DNA of 28,191 bases, taken from IMG/VR virus record IMGVR_UViG_3300030328_003021, positions 440 to 28,630 of that record; one strand, written 5' to 3'. Position 1 is the stretch's first letter; each line of letters begins with the position of its first letter. The DNA comes from a virus. Positions 19,098-28,191 of this stretch are shown piece after piece. Below the pieces are notes generated by a model. It worked only from the letters and a program-made list of their open reading frames with translations. It was not told where the DNA came from and made no database searches. The position numbers and the translations under genes are program-made.

Positions 19098-22000
19098 ATG
19101 TTTGAATACAAAGGAGTAGAATACTCAAGAGAACAACTTGTTGACGCTGCCAATAGATACAATAATGGAGATTTTGAGGGATATTTAGAAGATATGAAAA
19201 ACAAAGGTCTTGTGGAAAAGCAAGCCGGCTCGACGGGAGACCCGACGATGAGCCAAAGAAGTATGGGGTCAGATTTGGAAACTGGTTTTTCGGAGCCAGT
19301 AAGTTGGTTTGATCAAACATGGTTTGGTAGAGGTATAAAAGCAGCTAGCACGACTGGTGAAGCCACAAATTTAATGTCTGAAAACTTTTCTAATATAAGT
19401 AGCGAAAGTATACAAGATTTTATTAAAGCTAAAGAACAGGAAGCTAGTACATATGTTGAATCTGAACGTATGAAAAAGTTTCAAAAAAAATACAAAGAAG
19501 AAGGTAGCACGTGGTCTGCTTTTTTTAGAGGTGTAAGAGAACAACCTGGTTTATTACCAGAACTATTTGTACAGTCATTAGGTACTCAAGTTGGTACATT
19601 AATAGATTCACCTGGCGCTTCAATTGCTGCAGCTGGAACTGGAGCTGCTAGTGGAGCTGCTGTTGGAGCAATACCTGGTGCTGTTGCTGGATTTATGGGT
19701 GGTTTAGCTACTTCAATGGAAGCTGCTCTAACTTTTGGCGAGTTAATAGAAACTCGATTAAAAGAAAAAAATCAAGAATTTACTGATGAAAACATAAGAG
19801 CTTTATTAGAATCAGAAGGTAGAGAGATAAGAAACAAAGCTTTAGGTAGAGGTTTAGCTATTGGTACTATAGAAGGTTTGTCTGGTGGTTTAGCTGGTAA
19901 AGCAGCTGTAGCTACTAAAGGTGTAGTAAAAGGGGCTAGAAAAGGTGTTGTTGGAGCTGGTGCTGCTGGTGTTGGTGTTGAGGCTGTTGGTGGTGCGGCT
20001 GGTGAAATAGCTGGTAGAGCTGTAGCTGGTCAAGAAATGGATGCTGCTGAAATTGGCTTTGAAGCTATAACAGGTACTGTAACTGCGCCTGTAAATGTTT
20101 CTGCAGCTTTATTAACAGCAAAACAACCTACATATAGATTAAACGGTGAAAGTGTTACGTACGAGCAAATGAAAGATTTTGTTGATACAGCTGATGATAT
20201 GGATGTTGCTAAAGCTGATATTAAAATGGAAAATGATTTTACTGGTATTGGTAAAAAAGCACAAGCAAAACAAGAGGCTGCTATAGAAGGTATAAAGTTA
20301 TCTGGTGATGAAGCTACAATAGCTGAAGTTGCTGACGCTAGAGCTGAGATAAAATTTCAAGATAATATGGAGTTTGCTAAAAAACATAGTAAACTTTATG
20401 GTTTAAAATTTACTGAATTAACTCAAGAAGAAATACAAGAAAGATTTAAAGATACTAAAAATTCTGAGTTATCAGAATCGTTAGGTGGTGTTATTGGTGA
20501 CGAAATAATAATAAACAAAGATTTAGCAAAGACTAAAGTTTTTGGTGACAACGTAGGTAATCACGAGCTGTTACATGGTATAATTAAAGCTAGCAAAGCC
20601 AATATAACACAAGATACTATAAATGATTTTTTAAATATTATAGGTAAAGAAAATGAAGCTATAATTCAAAAAAGAATTGATGATAATTACGATGCTGATT
20701 ACATGTCTAAAAATTTAGATGAATACTTTACTATATTTTCAGATGCTATAGCCAATGGTGATGTTAAATTTAACGATAGCATGTTTACTAAAATACAAGA
20801 TGTTATCAGAAGAATGTTCGCTAGTATTGGTATTGCAAATGTAGATTTTGAAAACGCAAGAGGTGCTTATAATTTTTTAAAAGACTATAATAAAAGTATA
20901 CACAAAGGAACTTTAAGCAAGGGTCTTAAAAAAGCAACAACAGGAACAGCTGTATTTGAAGATGCTGTTTTTTCTAAAGCGCCAGAAACATTAATTAAAA
21001 CAATAAAAAGAGGTAAAAATGCTAAAAAAGTTAAAGCTGCTGAAGACGCTTTAGTGCCACAATACCAAGCTTTAGCTTTAGAAGCTTTAGGTTATACAGA
21101 GAAAAAAGGTGATATACGTAGGGAAAACGTTGTGTCTGCTATTAATGAATACTATGAAGCTATTGTAAGAAATTACGATCCTAAAAAAGGTGCATTTTCA
21201 ACTCACGTTTATAATAATATAGCTCCTAAAAATGATACTATATTTGAAAAAGCTAAAACATTAGCTATACGTGAGGGCGTTAAACTTGACGCACCAGAAG
21301 TAAAAGAATTAGCTGGCGACGTGGGTGTAACTACAAACCTTGAAGATACATTTGTACAAAAAATAAATATACTTAAAGATTTTGCAATAACAGATAATAT
21401 TGCTAGTAAAATAAAAGCATTAATTAAAGTAGCGGAAGGCGACACGTTTAAACAGGTAATATCTAAGTACGCTGGTAAAGTTGGTGAACTTGTATTTGGT
21501 ATTCCTGCTAAAAAAATTATGGATAGTAAGGCTAATTTAATACCTACAACAAAATATAAAGAAGGTATGCCTATCCCAGCTGAAGCACAAAATATACAAC
21601 GATTTTTTCAAGCTGGAGAAAACATGAGTAAGTTTATAAAGTCATTACCACTTTATAATGTAGCTGATAAAACTGCTGACATAGATAAAATAGGTGAAAA
21701 CATAGAAACGCCTAGAAATGTTTTTGGTGTGGCTATTGGTTTAAAGGGCTTACCATTAGATTATTTTTACGAAAACTATACTGATCCAAAAGCATTTAGT
21801 AAAGATCCTAAAATTTATGAACAAAGAATAACGTCCAAAAGCGGTAGAAGTAGAGGCGTATCAACACAAACACAAGTTAAAAGATTAAAAGCAGAGTTTA
21901 GAAATCCCACAACTGAAACTATTGAAAAAGCTAAAAGAGATATAGGTATAACACCTAGAAACGAATCAAATATATACAATAGAGATATTGGTCAATTACA

Positions 22001-25000
22001 AAAAGGTTTCGCTAAAGTATATTCTATAAACGCATCGTTGTCAGGCGCTCAAAGATTTTTAGCTGATAAACTTAAAAAAGCACCAGCAGAAAAGAAACCA
22101 GCTATTAAAAAACAAATAGCAAGTGTTACAGCGGCGCAAGGTAAAGCTGCTTTTAGTAAAAGTATTGAAAACGTAGAGCAAATTATATCTATAAATGACA
22201 TTTTTCAATTAGAAACAAAAGGTATAGATGGCGTTTTAAAGTTTTTTAAAATTAATAAAAGTTATAATATAAAAACAGAAGAAGGCAGAAAAAAATTTTT
22301 AAAAGCAATAGAAACAAAATTACTCCCACTATTACCAAAAGAGTTTTGGATGAGTCAATCCGGTATTGATGTATTTACTGGTAGTAATGCTAATTACGGT
22401 TTGAGTATGTCTGAAACATATAAAGGCTCTGGTGTTTACAAAAATCCTACTGAAGCTAAAGCTTACAATAAATTTAGAAAAGATGTTAGAGCTCTTATAA
22501 AAAACCACAAAAACTTTGGTAAACCAATTAATAATGCTAATTGGAATATTGACAAAATATACACAACTGTTTTTGGTAATAAAAATACTTATAAAACAAA
22601 GCTTAAAGATACTAAAAGAATTAAAAAATGGAATAAAGATATAGCTTTAATTCATAAAGAAATGTGGAGTCGTTTTAATGAGGCAATTAAAAACGATGAA
22701 ACGGGTGAGTTAGCTGGAATTATAGGTACTTATTTAAAACTTACGGCTAACGATAAAAAGTCTTGGCATAGATTAGGCGCTCAAATAGCTGGTTACTCTA
22801 AAGAAATAAGTAAAAGAAAAAAAGGAGAAGCTAATATAGAGTTTGAACATGCTATGCCAGCTACAGCGGCTTATCTTTATTTAATGGATAGCATATTAAG
22901 AGATGGTGTTGATTTTAACACAGCTTATGATCTTGTTATTGATAATTACAAGCTAATAGTTTTAGATAAAGCTATGGACGATAAACTAACCAGTGCTAAA
23001 ACGGCAAAAGGTTATAGCTTACAAAAACGCATGCCAGACGATTGGAGTCTTATAGAAAACAAATGGTGGGAAAGGTACTTTAACAATATTGTAAACAATG
23101 TTGATGGTGGTATTGATCCAAGCTCTATAATAAATTTGGATGGCAAGACGTTTGCGGAAACTTTTAATATTAAAAAACCTATAACAAAACCAAACCTTAA
23201 TAAAACTAAAACACTTAATAAGGCTGGTAAGTTTTCTAGATCTAGCCAAAACGAACCTAAAGGTATTACCGTTTTAGATTTTGACGATACTTTAGCTACA
23301 ACTAAATCATTAGTTAAATTTACTACGCCAGAAGGCGAAACTGGTACTTTAAACGCTGAAGAATACGCTAGCACATATGAAGATTTACAAGATAAAGGTT
23401 ATACATTTGATTTTTCTGATTTTAATAAAGTTGTAAAAGGTAAGTTAGCGCCTTTATTTAATAAAGCAATAAAATTACAAGGTAAGTTTGGTCCTGAAAA
23501 TATGTTTGTTTTAACAGCTAGACCACCAGCTGCTCAAAAAGCTATATTTGATTTTTTAAAAGCTAATGGTTTAAACATACCTATTAAAAATATAACTGGC
23601 CTTGGTAATTCTACAGCGGAAGCTAAAGCGTTGTGGATAGCGGATAAAGTTGGTGAAGGTTTTAATGACTTTTATTTTGCTGATGATGCTTTACAAAATG
23701 TACAAGCTGTTAAAAACATGTTAGATCAGTTCGATGTTAAGTCTAAAGTTCAACAAGCTAAAGTTAAGTTTAGTAAATCAATGAACGAAAACTTTAACGA
23801 TATATTAGAAGAGGTAACTGGTATTGACACTAAAAAACGTTTTTCAGATATTAAAGCTAGAAAGCGTGGTGCTAGTAAAGGTAAGTTTAGATTTTTCATA
23901 CCACCGTCACACGAAGATTTTGTAGGATTATTATATAACTTCATGGGTAAAGGTAGAAGAGGTGATCAACATAGAAACTTTTTTGAACAAGCTTTAGTTA
24001 GACCATTGAATAGAGCATATAGAGAAATAGATACAGCTAAACAAGCTATAGCAAACGACTATAAAGAGCTAAACAAACAATTTGGAGATGTTAAAAAGAA
24101 ACTTACAAAGAAAACTCCAGATGGTGATTTTACATTTGAAGATGCTATAAGAGTTTATTTGTGGAATAAACATGGTTACGATATACCTGGTTTATCACCA
24201 ACTGATCAAACTAACTTATCAGAACTAGTAATGTCTGATCCTCAACTACAAGCGTATGCAGAAACTTTAAATGTAATATCTAAACAAGATACTTACGTAG
24301 ATCCAGGTAAAGGCTGGGAAGGTGGTAATATAAAAACTGATTTAATAGATGCTACTGGTAGAGTTGGTAGAGCTGAGTACTTTGCAGAGTTTAACGAAAA
24401 CGTTGATATATTATTTTCAGAAGAAAATTTAAATAAAATTGAAGCTGGTTACGGTAAAGATTTTAGAAGCGCATTAGAAGATATGCTTCACAGGATTAAA
24501 ACTGGAGTTAATAGACCAAAAGGACAAAGTGGCACTATAAATAAATTTATGAATTATTTAAATGGTTCTGTTGGTACGGTCATGTTCTTTAACGTTAGAT
24601 CTGCTATATTACAGCAAATGTCTATTGTAAACTATATAAACTTTGCAGATAATAATATGTTTGCTGCTGCTAAAGCTTTTGCTAATCAAAAACAATACTG
24701 GAAAGATTTTGCATTTATATTTAACTCAGACATGTTAAAACAAAGGCGTGGTGGTATTGGTACAGATATTAACGGTGCTGATCTTGCTCAAGCTGTAGCT
24801 GGTTCTAAAAACCCAACTAAAATAGTTATAAGTAAACTTTTAAAATTAGGTTTTTTACCTACTCAAATTGGTGATAATATTGCAATTGCTACTGGTGGCG
24901 CTACGTTTTATAGAAATAGAATAAACAAATATATTAAAGATGGTTTAAGTCAAAAAGAAGCAGAGGCAAAAGCTTTTACTGATTTTCAAGATTTAACGCA

Positions 25001-25856
25001 GTCAACACAGCAGTCTTCAAGACCTGATATGAGTTCACAACAACAAGCTAGTTGGATAGGTAAATTAGTTTTGAACTTTCAAAACATTACGTCACAGTAT
25101 AATAGAATAATTAAAAAAGCTGCATCAGATATATATAACAGAAGAATTACACCGCCTTACACCACTCAAGCACAAAGTGATTTAGGTAATTTATCTAAAA
25201 TACTATACTATGGTGGTATACAAAACGTTATATTCTATGGTTTACAAACAGCTTTATTTGCGGTAATGTTTGATGATGATAAAGATGAAGATCAAATATT
25301 AAAGAAAAGAGAAAGAGTTATAAACGGCAGTATTGACTCGATATTAAGAGGTTCTGGTATATATGGTGCTGTTATTTCTACGTTAAAAAATACTCTTATT
25401 AAATTTAAAGAGCAAAGAGAAAAAGGTTATAACAAAGATGAAAGTGCTGTACTAATGGAGTTGTTAAACTTTTCACCTGTTGTTGGTATTAAAGCTAGAC
25501 AAATAGTTAACGCTGAAAAAACTATTAATTATAATGAAAACGTTATGAGTGAAATGCGAACGTTTGAGGCTGATAATCCACAATGGTCAGCTGTTACTAA
25601 TTATACTCAGGCTTTAACTAATTTTCCAGCAAATAGATTGTATCAAAAAAGTATAAACATGCGTAATGCGCTAGATAAAGATTATACTAATTTCCAAAGA
25701 GTAATGTTTTTTAGTGGTTATACAACTTGGAGTTTAGGTTTAGGTGATAACGAAAGAATTATTGAAGCAAAAGAAAAAGCTAAAATAAACAAAAAGAATA
25801 AAAAGAAATCAACAAGAACAAGAACAAAAACTAGAACTAGAACAAGAACACGATAA
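19098..25856 (+). CDS. Giant multidomain (polyvalent-type) ejected virion protein
   Basis: This 2252-residue protein probably travels in the virion and enters the host with the DNA. In order: a short conserved-looking head (1-40); two Gly/Ala-rich, membrane-like segments (about 175-215 and 275-315); a zincin-like domain with HELLH at 489-493 and possible third ligand E542; a stretch resembling sigma-70 region 2 (about 645-705, NYDPKKGAFSTHVYNNI at 692-708); an unassigned domain with FEHAMPATAAYLYLMD near 1249-1264; a HAD domain with DFDDT (1394-1398), TARP (1473-1476) and ADD (1528-1530); a long helical region (about 1585-2220) of the sort found at the end of phage polyvalent proteins; and a Lys-rich, Thr-Arg repeat tail. 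FSKA, FSKS, FSRS and FSKS at 625, 1019, 1379 and 1558 lie near domain borders. No RNA polymerase or lysozyme motif was found. Domain calls are by motif only. Confidence 0.75.
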   Translation: MFEYKGVEYSREQLVDAANRYNNGDFEGYLEDMKNKGLVEKQAGSTGDPTMSQRSMGSDLETGFSEPVSWFDQTWFGRGIKAASTTGEATNLMSENFSNISSESIQDFIKAKEQEASTYVESERMKKFQKKYKEEGSTWSAFFRGVREQPGLLPELFVQSLGTQVGTLIDSPGASIAAAGTGAASGAAVGAIPGAVAGFMGGLATSMEAALTFGELIETRLKEKNQEFTDENIRALLESEGREIRNKALGRGLAIGTIEGLSGGLAGKAAVATKGVVKGARKGVVGAGAAGVGVEAVGGAAGEIAGRAVAGQEMDAAEIGFEAITGTVTAPVNVSAALLTAKQPTYRLNGESVTYEQMKDFVDTADDMDVAKADIKMENDFTGIGKKAQAKQEAAIEGIKLSGDEATIAEVADARAEIKFQDNMEFAKKHSKLYGLKFTELTQEEIQERFKDTKNSELSESLGGVIGDEIIINKDLAKTKVFGDNVGNHELLHGIIKASKANITQDTINDFLNIIGKENEAIIQKRIDDNYDADYMSKNLDEYFTIFSDAIANGDVKFNDSMFTKIQDVIRRMFASIGIANVDFENARGAYNFLKDYNKSIHKGTLSKGLKKATTGTAVFEDAVFSKAPETLIKTIKRGKNAKKVKAAEDALVPQYQALALEALGYTEKKGDIRRENVVSAINEYYEAIVRNYDPKKGAFSTHVYNNIAPKNDTIFEKAKTLAIREGVKLDAPEVKELAGDVGVTTNLEDTFVQKINILKDFAITDNIASKIKALIKVAEGDTFKQVISKYAGKVGELVFGIPAKKIMDSKANLIPTTKYKEGMPIPAEAQNIQRFFQAGENMSKFIKSLPLYNVADKTADIDKIGENIETPRNVFGVAIGLKGLPLDYFYENYTDPKAFSKDPKIYEQRITSKSGRSRGVSTQTQVKRLKAEFRNPTTETIEKAKRDIGITPRNESNIYNRDIGQLQKGFAKVYSINASLSGAQRFLADKLKKAPAEKKPAIKKQIASVTAAQGKAAFSKSIENVEQIISINDIFQLETKGIDGVLKFFKINKSYNIKTEEGRKKFLKAIETKLLPLLPKEFWMSQSGIDVFTGSNANYGLSMSETYKGSGVYKNPTEAKAYNKFRKDVRALIKNHKNFGKPINNANWNIDKIYTTVFGNKNTYKTKLKDTKRIKKWNKDIALIHKEMWSRFNEAIKNDETGELAGIIGTYLKLTANDKKSWHRLGAQIAGYSKEISKRKKGEANIEFEHAMPATAAYLYLMDSILRDGVDFNTAYDLVIDNYKLIVLDKAMDDKLTSAKTAKGYSLQKRMPDDWSLIENKWWERYFNNIVNNVDGGIDPSSIINLDGKTFAETFNIKKPITKPNLNKTKTLNKAGKFSRSSQNEPKGITVLDFDDTLATTKSLVKFTTPEGETGTLNAEEYASTYEDLQDKGYTFDFSDFNKVVKGKLAPLFNKAIKLQGKFGPENMFVLTARPPAAQKAIFDFLKANGLNIPIKNITGLGNSTAEAKALWIADKVGEGFNDFYFADDALQNVQAVKNMLDQFDVKSKVQQAKVKFSKSMNENFNDILEEVTGIDTKKRFSDIKARKRGASKGKFRFFIPPSHEDFVGLLYNFMGKGRRGDQHRNFFEQALVRPLNRAYREIDTAKQAIANDYKELNKQFGDVKKKLTKKTPDGDFTFEDAIRVYLWNKHGYDIPGLSPTDQTNLSELVMSDPQLQAYAETLNVISKQDTYVDPGKGWEGGNIKTDLIDATGRVGRAEYFAEFNENVDILFSEENLNKIEAGYGKDFRSALEDMLHRIKTGVNRPKGQSGTINKFMNYLNGSVGTVMFFNVRSAILQQMSIVNYINFADNNMFAAAKAFANQKQYWKDFAFIFNSDMLKQRRGGIGTDINGADLAQAVAGSKNPTKIVISKLLKLGFLPTQIGDNIAIATGGATFYRNRINKYIKDGLSQKEAEAKAFTDFQDLTQSTQQSSRPDMSSQQQASWIGKLVLNFQNITSQYNRIIKKAASDIYNRRITPPYTTQAQSDLGNLSKILYYGGIQNVIFYGLQTALFAVMFDDDKDEDQILKKRERVINGSIDSILRGSGIYGAVISTLKNTLIKFKEQREKGYNKDESAVLMELLNFSPVVGIKARQIVNAEKTINYNENVMSEMRTFEADNPQWSAVTNYTQALTNFPANRLYQKSINMRNALDKDYTNFQRVMFFSGYTTWSLGLGDNERIIEAKEKAKINKKNKKKSTRTRTKTRTRTRTR
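25812..25853 (+). repeat. Six-base coding repeat encoding a Thr-Arg/Lys tail
   Basis: Seven consecutive ACN + AGA/AAA/CGA units encode (TR)2-TK-(TR)4, residues 2239-2252 of the giant protein, and run to its stop codon. A Lys-rich stretch precedes it. Codon variation (ACA/ACT, AGA/AAA/CGA) shows it is not a fresh slippage product. Confidence 0.85.
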
Positions 25857-26848
25857 TGAAAAAACTAATTATAATATTTTTAACTACGTTAATAGCTTGT
25901 GCTGCTCCTAAAGATTGTTGTTCGCAAGTAAAGCTAAAAAAATACTTTAAGTTTGCAACGTTTTATGCTGCTGCTAGTGGAGGAACCTCTATATCAGATG
26001 TAGATGTTTTCTCTGTAACAAATGGTCTACAAACCTCTACAGTTAAAACTCCATTTGATTATAATCTAGCGTTTGGTATAAGAAAGATTGCTAGGTTTGG
26101 TAATGTAGGTAAAGTAAAAGGTTTAGAGTTTTTATTTGAAGCTGATTATACTAGACAAGAAGGTGTTAAATATTTAGATCAACATCATTTTATTAGATAT
26201 GTAGCTAAGAACTATATTTTAAAAGGAGAGTATTTACAAGATGGTTTTGCAGATATTAAATATTTCGAGACATCGGAAAGATATAGATATAGTATAGGTA
26301 AATTATCTCTTAACGTAGGACTAGCACAAAGATTATCTGAACCTTATGGTTACGATCCATTAGAAGAATGGATATTAGACAATGGTGATATACATTATAC
26401 TTATCTAGCTTTACAAGAAGGATATAATGTCGATGTTTATAATTCTATCTACACAGATCCAGGTGGAAATGTAGTTGCTACAAGTCCTGAAGTTTGGGAG
26501 GAAGTTGTTATACCTCAAGTTTTAGCAGACTATACTGAAAAGAAAAGAGATCAATTAGATAGCAAGATGCAACAATCATTAGTATTAGGTTTAGACTACT
26601 ATTACTATAAGAAAAGTTTTTGGTTACATTCTTGGGCAAATTTAATGCCTTGGCATTATGATGACGGTGGAACATTCTCTTACCATAATTATAATGATGG
26701 AAATCAATGGTATGATTATTCTGGTGGATTAATCTTTGGATATAAAATAAACAAGCATTTAGGAACGTTTGTTGAAGGTAAATATAATAAGTATTGGAAT
26801 AGAGAGTGGTATGATTTTAAGTGTGGTATAAACTATGTAATCTTTTAA
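25856..26848 (+). CDS. Exported, putative outer-membrane protein
   Basis: This 330-residue protein starts in the A of the preceding TAA (TAATG), so translation is probably coupled to the giant gene. Residues 1-24 form a Sec signal. LIAC at 12-15 fits a lipobox, but cleavage near CCSQ (21-24) by signal peptidase I is also possible. The mature part is rich in aromatic residues and alternating strands, notably LGLDYYYYKKSFWLHSWANL, a GGLIFGYKINKHLGTFVEGK stretch and a C-terminal phenylalanine. These are marks of an outer-membrane beta-barrel. It could alter the host surface, for example in superinfection exclusion, or help lysis. No family was recognised, and barrel plus lipobox is an odd combination. 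Confidence 0.55.
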   Translation: MKKLIIIFLTTLIACAAPKDCCSQVKLKKYFKFATFYAAASGGTSISDVDVFSVTNGLQTSTVKTPFDYNLAFGIRKIARFGNVGKVKGLEFLFEADYTRQEGVKYLDQHHFIRYVAKNYILKGEYLQDGFADIKYFETSERYRYSIGKLSLNVGLAQRLSEPYGYDPLEEWILDNGDIHYTYLALQEGYNVDVYNSIYTDPGGNVVATSPEVWEEVVIPQVLADYTEKKRDQLDSKMQQSLVLGLDYYYYKKSFWLHSWANLMPWHYDDGGTFSYHNYNDGNQWYDYSGGLIFGYKINKHLGTFVEGKYNKYWNREWYDFKCGINYVIF

Positions 26849-27157: not shown

Positions 27158-27484
27158 ATGAAAAATATATTCATACTATTTCTAATCTTACTTTCCAATA
27201 ATGTTTTTGGACAGTTAGTTGTTACAGAGTTTAATGCCGATTGGAATAGTGCAAATAAGGTAGAATGGTTAGACAAATTAAGTGACTGTGATATCGCTAA
27301 AGTAGATATAGTTAAAGAACCTACTCTCCAAAAAGATCATAAAGTAGTAATAGTACCTACTATTATTATATTTAAAGATGGAGATGAGGTTGCTAGATTT
27401 CAAGCTGATATATCATTTAAAATGTTAGCTACAAGGGAGGAAGTTCAAAATAGTGTTGATGAATTGTTAATGAGTGATTTTTAA
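27158..27484 (+). CDS. Secreted thioredoxin-fold protein lacking the CxxC
   Basis: This 108-residue protein has a signal peptide (1-19) ending VFGQ, typical of flavobacterial exported proteins. The rest follows the thioredoxin plan: strand and aromatic lead TEFNADW (23-29), a helix, a short strand, then VPTIIIFKDGDEVARF at 66-81 with Pro67 in the place of the conserved cis-proline. Where thioredoxin has WCGPCK this protein has WNSANK (29-34), so both redox cysteines are gone; the only mature cysteine is C44. It cannot act as a dithiol oxidoreductase, and a binding or chaperone-like role in the periplasm is inferred. It starts 6 bases after the previous stop. The next large secreted protein keeps WCGPC. 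Confidence 0.7.
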   Translation: MKNIFILFLILLSNNVFGQLVVTEFNADWNSANKVEWLDKLSDCDIAKVDIVKEPTLQKDHKVVIVPTIIIFKDGDEVARFQADISFKMLATREEVQNSVDELLMSDF

Positions 27485-27501: not shown

Positions 27502-27579
27502 ATGAAAGAAAAAATATGTTTGCTTATACAGAAATTAACTTTTGGTAAAATCTGCTTAGGCCTTTGCAAAAAGAAATAA
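27502..27579 (+). CDS. 25-residue cationic cysteine-containing micropeptide
   Basis: ATG at 27502 opens a 25-codon frame ending in TAA at 27577-27579, whose last A is the first base of the nuclease ATG. The peptide MKEKICLLIQKLTFGKICLG then LCKKK is cationic and amphipathic, with three cysteines in KIC-type contexts (KIC at 5-6, KIC at 17-18, LC at 21-22). The AT-only leader and TAATG coupling match real genes here. It could be a true small protein, possibly membrane-active, or a leader that couples nuclease translation. Short length limits certainty. Confidence 0.5.
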   Translation: MKEKICLLIQKLTFGKICLGLCKKK

Positions 27580-27947
27580 TGTACACTTACAAAATAAAGT
27601 TAGATAGAGTTGTTGATGGTGATACCATTGATGCTTATATTGATTTGGGATTTGATGTCTCAGTTAAAAAAAGAATAAGATTTATGGGGATTAATACTCC
27701 AGAATCTAGAACAAGAGATTTAGAAGAAAAAGCTAGAGGTTTAGCTGCTAAAGACAGGGTTAAACAGTTATTAGAAGGAACAGATACGATACAATTAGTT
27801 TCTCATGGTGTTGGAAAATATGGAAGATGTTTAGGTGAGTTAAGTATAGATATTGTAGATGGAAAACAAGGCTTAACTATGCAGAGCGTAAACGAGCTTT
27901 TAATTAAAGAAGGACATGCTGTTGAATATCACGGCGGAAAAAGATAA
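27579..27947 (+). CDS. Thermonuclease (staphylococcal nuclease family)
   Basis: This 122-residue protein is a compact SNase-like nuclease acting on DNA and/or RNA with calcium. I take ATG 27579 as start, because the longer frame opens with TTG at 27564 inside the micro-ORF and the ATG shows TAATG coupling. Motifs visible: VVDGDTIDA (D13, D15, T16), RFMGINTPES (R34, N39, T40, E42) and KYGRCLGEL (R83). These match D19, D21, T22, R35, D40, T41, E43 and R87 of staphylococcal nuclease, except that the calcium-ligand Asp40 is Asn39 here, a change I believe also occurs in other family members. It has no signal peptide, so it should act in the cytoplasm, unlike its neighbours. A role in host DNA breakdown or nucleotide scavenging is inferred. 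Confidence 0.88.
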   Translation: MYTYKIKLDRVVDGDTIDAYIDLGFDVSVKKRIRFMGINTPESRTRDLEEKARGLAAKDRVKQLLEGTDTIQLVSHGVGKYGRCLGELSIDIVDGKQGLTMQSVNELLIKEGHAVEYHGGKR

Positions 27948-27949
27948 TT

Positions 27950-28191
27950 ATGAAAAAAATATTATTAATATTATTCTTGTGTTTGTCTACAGTGTCAAAA
28001 GGACAATTAGCAGATGGTTCTATTGCTCCTGATTGGACACTTACAGATGTAAATGGTACAGCTCACAATCTATATAATTATTTAGATGGGAGTTATACTG
28101 TTTTTCTTGATTTCTCAGCAGTATGGTGTGGTCCGTGTTGGGGATATCATACTAGCGGTGCACTAGAAGATTTATATATGAATCATGGTCC
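27950..28191 (+). CDS. Secreted redoxin/TlpA-like thioredoxin (3' end outside window)
   Basis: The first 80 residues are visible and the frame is open at the right edge. Residues 1-19 are a signal peptide ending KGQ, the same flavobacterial style as the protein at 27158. The mature part reads IAPDWTLTDVNGT (25-37), the usual AhpC/TSA-redoxin opening, then TVFLDFSAVWCGPCWGYH (50-67) with an intact C60-G-P-C63. The trailing SGALEDLYMNHG resembles redoxin domains at the front of flavobacterial secreted proteins, which often carry a C-terminal sorting domain; that end cannot be seen here. It starts 2 bases after the nuclease stop. It is probably a periplasmic or cell-surface thiol oxidoreductase acquired from a host. 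Confidence 0.8.
   Translation, partial: MKKILLILFLCLSTVSKGQLADGSIAPDWTLTDVNGTAHNLYNYLDGSYTVFLDFSAVWCGPCWGYHTSGALEDLYMNHG

Follow-up and report, generated by a model that had tools for sequence, protein, structure and literature searches.

The question raised by this locus is what a phage protein of 2252 residues, in which several biochemically unrelated domains (a zincin, a sigma-like domain, an EHxxP domain, a HAD domain, and a helical module) share one chain, does during infection. The window, meaning the whole stretch of DNA that was analyzed (28,191 nucleotides), comes from an IMG/VR fragment of 28,630 bases. A preliminary description of the window, drawn from its letters alone, had singled out this virion-region gene as encoding an injected multi-enzyme protein of the polyvalent type in a Bacteroidota podovirus-like phage, with the neutralization of host defenses as one possible task. 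The open reading frame proved real, and it closes a block of virion genes in a portal-terminase phage, with a 580-residue open reading frame upstream and a 330-residue open reading frame directly downstream. Coordinates of the gene and its parts are collected in Table 1.

The portal protein and its neighbors matched podoviruses of Flavobacteriia, including ctfjg026 (54%, host unknown), Maribacter phage Panino (49%), Flavobacterium phage elemo (43%), Cellulophaga phage phi38:1, and others, which agrees with the podovirus-like identity first suggested and supports a marine Bacteroidota, Flavobacteriia-type podovirus as the source. Matches in MAGs labeled Maricaulis, Aliivibrio, Woesearchaeota, and Ilumatobacteraceae were attributed to viral contigs that had been binned with these genomes and were not taken as proof of hosts. 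Searches with the whole giant protein gave no matches by tblastn against named phages and nothing informative in Pfam and PHROGs, except for phrog_32588 at the N terminus.

Several other genes were recorded at the downstream end of the window. The 330-residue protein (window positions 25856 to 26848) begins at the giant gene's stop codon, has a signal-peptide-like start, was found in 41 of the fetched loci, and matched no family. Two small proteins (27158 to 27484 and 27950 to 28189) also have signal-peptide-like starts, and the latter carries a thioredoxin-like WCGPC motif and runs past the window end. A thermonuclease-like endonuclease is encoded at 27564 to 27947 (phrog_452, E = 3e-38).

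Table 1. Position of the giant gene and of the regions recognized in its product
Feature	Residues	Window position	Strand	Remarks
Giant polyvalent-type gene	2252 aa	19098..25856	+	ATG start; 2252 codons without a stop
N-terminal region	93-444	19374..20429	+	Common to phrog_32588 and the 3859-aa giant of podovirus ctfjg026
Zincin-like metallopeptidase domain	419-635	20352..21002	+	HExxH motif, aa 489-493; E542 as third ligand
Sigma-70 region-2-like domain	~628-748	20979..21341	+	Motif YDPKKGAFSTHVYNNI, then KLDAP
Variable middle segment	749-1210	21342..22727	+	Common to only about 11-15 relatives; no known fold
EHxxP domain	1211-1343	22728..23126	+	E1250, H1251, P1254; AF2 beta hairpin and helices; function unknown
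HAD phosphatase domain	1385-1562	23250..23783	+	Catalytic motifs all intact
Helical C-terminal module	1563-2215	23784..25742	+	AF2 pLDDT 78.8; polyvalent-type scaffold by fold
LPD38-aligning stretch	1935-2064	24900..25289	+	hhalign versus LPD38 core
Strongly basic C-terminal tail		25761..25853	+	Sequence KKNKKKSTRTRTKTRTRTRTR

A giant gene follows the same virion block in most related podoviruses, with products of 3694 residues in elemo, 1691 in phi38:1, 1829 in Panino, 3859 in ctfjg026, and 1990 in phi13:2. In Cellulophaga phage phi40:1, the protein encoded in this slot (gp101) is annotated as a structural protein from experimental MS/MS proteomics. Direct virion evidence is limited to that annotation, which can be extended to the window's protein only by position and partial homology. 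The gp101 proteins of phi38:1 and phi40:1 (99.9% identical) share with this family the slot, a resemblance to several relatives at the N terminus (E as low as 7e-17), and an LPD38-like C terminus, but they differ in length and have no detectable HExxH zincin, EHxxP, or HAD motifs. Because phi38:1 gp101 lacks these motifs, the virion status of phi40:1 gp101 would transfer by position, N-terminal similarity, and the C terminus, and not by full homology. Giants of other cultured phages share different parts. Flavobacterium phage elemo gp20 (L088), annotated as "structural protein" and with DUF3293, has the same slot, the HExxH zincin, and a similar N-terminal region, but HAD, EHxxP, and the family's helical module were not detected in it. 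Maribacter phage Panino gp69 has the same slot, an LPD38-bearing C terminus, and N-terminal similarity to relatives such as L043, but no HExxH, HAD motif I, or EHxxP.

The window's protein belongs to a large family. A scan of IMG/VR returned 157 related places, 80 of which were kept, and five domain HMMs were run on 76 near-full-length members of 1808 to 4311 residues, the window's own protein included. The same order of domains (zincin, sigma-70 region-2-like, variable segment, EHxxP, HAD, helical C terminus) was found in 75/76. HAD was detected in 75/76, the helical module in 74/76, the zincin in 69/76 (undetected in seven), the sigma-like domain in 66/76, and EHxxP in 54/76; two placements look wrong (the sigma-like domain of L072 and EHxxP of L025), and the sigma-like count is looser than the others because its HMM was grown by iteration. 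The C-terminal ~840 residues were kept in all relatives at 41 to 87% identity, and the N terminus and the stretch between about residues 620 and 1370 were variable. The label "multi-enzyme" fits two likely enzymes, the zincin and the HAD domain, but not the sigma-like module, which is not an enzyme, or EHxxP, which remains unknown. Two relatives, L063 (12856/12886) and L052 (9741/9749), have the giant gene divided between two open reading frames at or just before HAD, through either a real gene split or a sequencing error.

No part of the protein is better conserved than its C-terminal scaffold. The AF2 model of this scaffold is helical, and BFVD matches of the model were to many giant phage proteins (E = 1e-8 to 3e-4), including entries named "PolyVal ADP-ribosyltransferase" and "Large polyvalent protein associated domain," so that the proposed helical, polyvalent-type C terminus was upheld by fold. 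Alignment by hhalign to the LPD38 (PF18857) core scored 31.7 to 34.2 (P = 0.0017 to 0.009, probability ≤16%), and block-shuffled controls reached at most 25.9. The Pfam model of LPD38 did not reach threshold, and no curated Pfam polyvalent domain (LPD, ART-PolyVal, PBECR, etc.) was found in the window protein, in the pre-C-terminal parts of 62 members, or in ten C termini. An HMM of the C terminus gave no match among cultured-phage giants, so the C-terminal link to those proteins rests on fold and on profile-profile comparison. A profile of LPD38 proteins did find the Panino giant (5e-18) and phi38:1 gp101 (8e-5), and polyvalent C termini therefore do occur in this gene slot.

The giant protein resembles the phage polyvalent proteins surveyed by Iyer et al. 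2017 (PMC5512222) in being a large multidomain chain from a portal-terminase phage, with a central zincin-type peptidase and a C terminus that is helical by fold, and differs from them in having no LPD family at Pfam threshold. Its disparate domains and a C-terminal fold shared with polyvalent-named proteins make assignment to the polyvalent class well supported, while ejection, processing, and polymerase binding are inferred.

The N-terminal part contains a Gly/Ala-rich segment (about residues 171 to 335, 39% Gly plus Ala, with many small-xxx-small pairs). This segment had been called membrane-like; the composition is as claimed, but only one short stretch (residues 186 to 205) reaches membrane-like hydropathy, and "glycine-zipper-like" is for that reason a safer term than "transmembrane." In the zincin that follows, all 37 rows of an alignment keep H489, E490, H493, and E542, and HExxH is present in 73/76 near-full-length members and missing from three. 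The AF2 model (pLDDT 82.6) places a helix and three strands before the HExxH helix and the E-bearing helix after it, an arrangement described for polyvalent MPTases by Iyer et al. 2017 (PMC5512222). With HExxH on a helix, the third-ligand Glu on the next conserved helix, and a three-stranded sheet, the modeled domain meets the criteria for a zincin, as first proposed from its motif; proteolysis is inferred. The same zincin was recognized in the giants of elemo (E = 4e-11) and ctfjg026 (E = 6e-5). Searches of the PDB with the zincin profile returned chance-level matches only, including IrrE and a small neutral protease at HExxH.

The main new element is the domain downstream of the zincin, where the stretch QYQALALEALGY...ENVVSAINEYYEAIVRNYDPKKGAFSTHVYNNIAPK...KLDAP is similar to region 2 of sigma factors. 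When a profile built from 14 relatives was searched against 177,635 PDB sequences, a sigma factor was the sole match (8x6g_H, E = 2.7e-4), and sigma factors were the top two matches of a wider 30-relative profile (E = 0.028 and 0.51). Compared with Bacteroidota ECF sigma factors by hhalign, the domain scored 28.6 (shuffled maximum, 19.1), in register at region 2.2-2.4, and the wide profile scored 25.6 (shuffled maximum, 14.4); with primary (RpoD-type) sigma factors alone, the comparison did not reach significance. Matches to PHROG 234 (late sigma factor; L047, E = 4.5e-6) and PHROG 1025 (sigma factor; L011 and L028, about 0.04) fell at the predicted place. Pfam Sigma70_r2 did not match the 2252-residue window protein; it did match the upstream half of the split relative L052 (3.9e-4, below the curated cutoff at 16.5 versus 24 bits), where the family HMM marks the same domain. 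Foldseek added only weak support, as sigma factors or sigma-bearing chains made up 7/36 weak matches of the AF2 model, individually insignificant. These lines of evidence are not fully independent because all come from one family, though the libraries and the members differ. Judged by sequence, residues ~628 to 748 qualify as a homologue of sigma-70 region 2, in line with the earlier sigma-like call, and binding to polymerase is inferred from that homology.

Among single roles for the sigma-like domain, contact with the host polymerase as infection begins seems the most likely, with binding inferred and the choice between recruitment and inhibition undecided. No region 4 was recognized within the giants of ten long relatives, where Sigma70_r4 matched only separate short open reading frames, and 8/10 of these relatives encode a stand-alone sigma factor of 250 to 263 residues, which makes sigma-driven use of the host polymerase fit these phages. 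Separate sigma factors with region 2 and/or region 4 were seen, for example, in G006, G158, G159, and G161-G165, with two in G159. The undetected region 4, and a separate phage sigma factor that could recruit later, would suit an inhibitor that mimics region 2, occupies the polymerase clamp, and shuts down host transcription with no promoter recruitment. There are no direct data on such an inhibitor, and the similarity spans the 2.2-2.4-like part and then an S/KLDAP-type linker as in sigma factors, which argues against it; we regard it as unlikely without setting it aside. The reading we put forward tentatively, as a possibility short of even chances, is that an injected sigma region-2 module, fused into the polyvalent protein, captures the host polymerase before phage genes are read, that a separate sigma factor acts later, and that the polyvalent protein also delivers a phosphatase or a phosphatase-kinase unit.

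Beyond the variable middle lies a domain flagged at the outset as an unassigned EHxxPA domain, and it stays unassigned. Across relatives its E, H, and P are nearly invariant and a downstream D and RY are often kept, but a PDB profile search was empty, Foldseek was silent, and no known family was identified. An HNH nuclease, suggested by the beta hairpin plus helix and by an EHxxP as in DUF1524, was unsupported by the PDB profile and Foldseek, and the two HNH examples were compared by eye only.

The HAD phosphatase call was borne out. Seven catalytic residues (D1394, D1396, T1398, T1473, K1510, D1529, and D1530) are invariant in a 64-row alignment, which omits eight members with motif I displaced or missing in the first alignment. 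A HAD profile found nothing in the PDB, and the identification came from motifs and from a Foldseek search of the C-terminal model, whose PDB neighbors were phosphoserine phosphatase, Ceg4, and Eya2 (probability, 0.8 to 1.0; E = 0.04 to 0.7). With DxDxT, T, K, and DD motifs and the fold in place, the criteria for a HAD phosphatase are met, and activity is inferred. The preliminary description would have been refuted by slice predictions yielding only tail-structural folds; the predicted folds include the HAD phosphatase and the zincin-like domain, besides a C-terminal fold matching polyvalent-named proteins.

In four relatives (L050, L056, L061, and L072) HAD motif I is separated from the rest of HAD by a P-loop domain. 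This nested kinase-like domain, at residues 2024 to 2310 in L050 and 1966 to 2250 in L056, comes after motif I and before the cap. In the scanned set, three members matched AAA_33/zeta toxin (Pfam) and PHROG 505 polynucleotide kinase, and the HAD-kinase unit of L056 gave weak matches to bacterial Pnkp and T4 PNK in their kinase domains. It is unusual for a HAD phosphatase to enclose a polynucleotide-kinase-like domain; in T4 PNK the two lie side by side. These matches, together with the invariant HAD residues, raise the possibility of counter-defense by end repair, in which HAD would remove 3' phosphates and the nested kinase of relatives would phosphorylate 5' ends, undoing tRNA or DNA cuts by defense nucleases, with the sigma-like domain secondary. 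However, the kinase occurs in only a few members, and the HAD fold matches are to phosphoserine phosphatase, Ceg4, and Eya2 and not to PNKP phosphatase, with no PDB relative for the HAD profile. End repair as the main task is accordingly hard to favor and is, in our judgment, improbable. Alongside defense, and with at least equal weight, the sigma and kinase findings point to transcription takeover and nucleic-acid end repair.

The position of the gene at the end of the virion block, an N-terminal region common to giant virion proteins, and the high conservation of the C-terminal scaffold could also be accommodated by a mainly structural ejection or inner-core protein, resembling T7 gp16 or the terminal regions of N4 vRNAP, with enzyme-like domains serving assembly or delivery and the sigma fold serving as a scaffold without polymerase contact. 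Such a protein would not be expected to hold its zincin and HAD catalytic residues invariant, to accept a P-loop kinase inserted into HAD in some members, to show sigma similarity that is sequence specific and in register, or to vary from 1808 to 4311 residues around a variable middle. A purely structural role is for these reasons considered rather unlikely.

The N4 virion RNA polymerase is a giant virion protein whose delivery sets off early transcription. It supplies a complete T7-like polymerase, whereas the giant protein here has a sigma-like domain only. Pfam RNA_pol had no match in the long relatives, but controls were silent too, and the absence of a T7-like polymerase is not proven. 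According to the survey of polyvalent proteins (PMC5512222), the N4 virion RNA polymerase bears an MPTase domain. The terms sigma, haloacid, phosphatase, and polynucleotide kinase do not occur in the main text of that survey. In the open-licence literature, injected polymerases were found, and an injected sigma domain was not.

The model judged probable on balance is that the protein is of polyvalent type, packaged in the virion and ejected, that it carries a phosphatase and an RNA-polymerase-binding sigma-like module into the host, and that its zincin matures it, with the reservation that no virion proteomics exists for this phage or for other members with the full domain order. The domains, the order and conservation in which they occur, and the gene slot were observed directly, and the steps of action are inferences from them. 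Packaging is inferred from the slot and from phi40:1, and ejection from the class of protein; both would probably involve the helical, distantly LPD38-like C terminus and the N-terminal Gly/Ala region. Once inside, the polyprotein is probably cleaved by its zincin into functional fragments, a step inferred from the presence of the zincin itself. The sigma-like piece may then contact the host RNA polymerase core, as its homology implies in the absence of binding data, and this contact would lead either to recruitment to phage promoters before phage gene expression or to exclusion of the host sigma factor. HAD, sometimes with a nested kinase, would probably act on phosphorylated nucleic-acid ends or nucleotides, to judge from the nested kinase and the intact residues.

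The polyvalent class was already known, and what the present case adds is a widespread virion-type family with a sigma-like module among its core domains, a feature that neither the survey's main text nor the literature searched was found to describe. The family is also a natural experiment, with a constant scaffold and a variable middle. If the proposed reading is true, an injected sigma domain would give virions one more means of starting transcription, in addition to injected polymerases and injected polymerase modifiers. If the sigma-like module binds the host polymerase, the onset of transcription in Bacteroidota podoviruses could be tested directly with cultured Cellulophaga and Flavobacterium systems.
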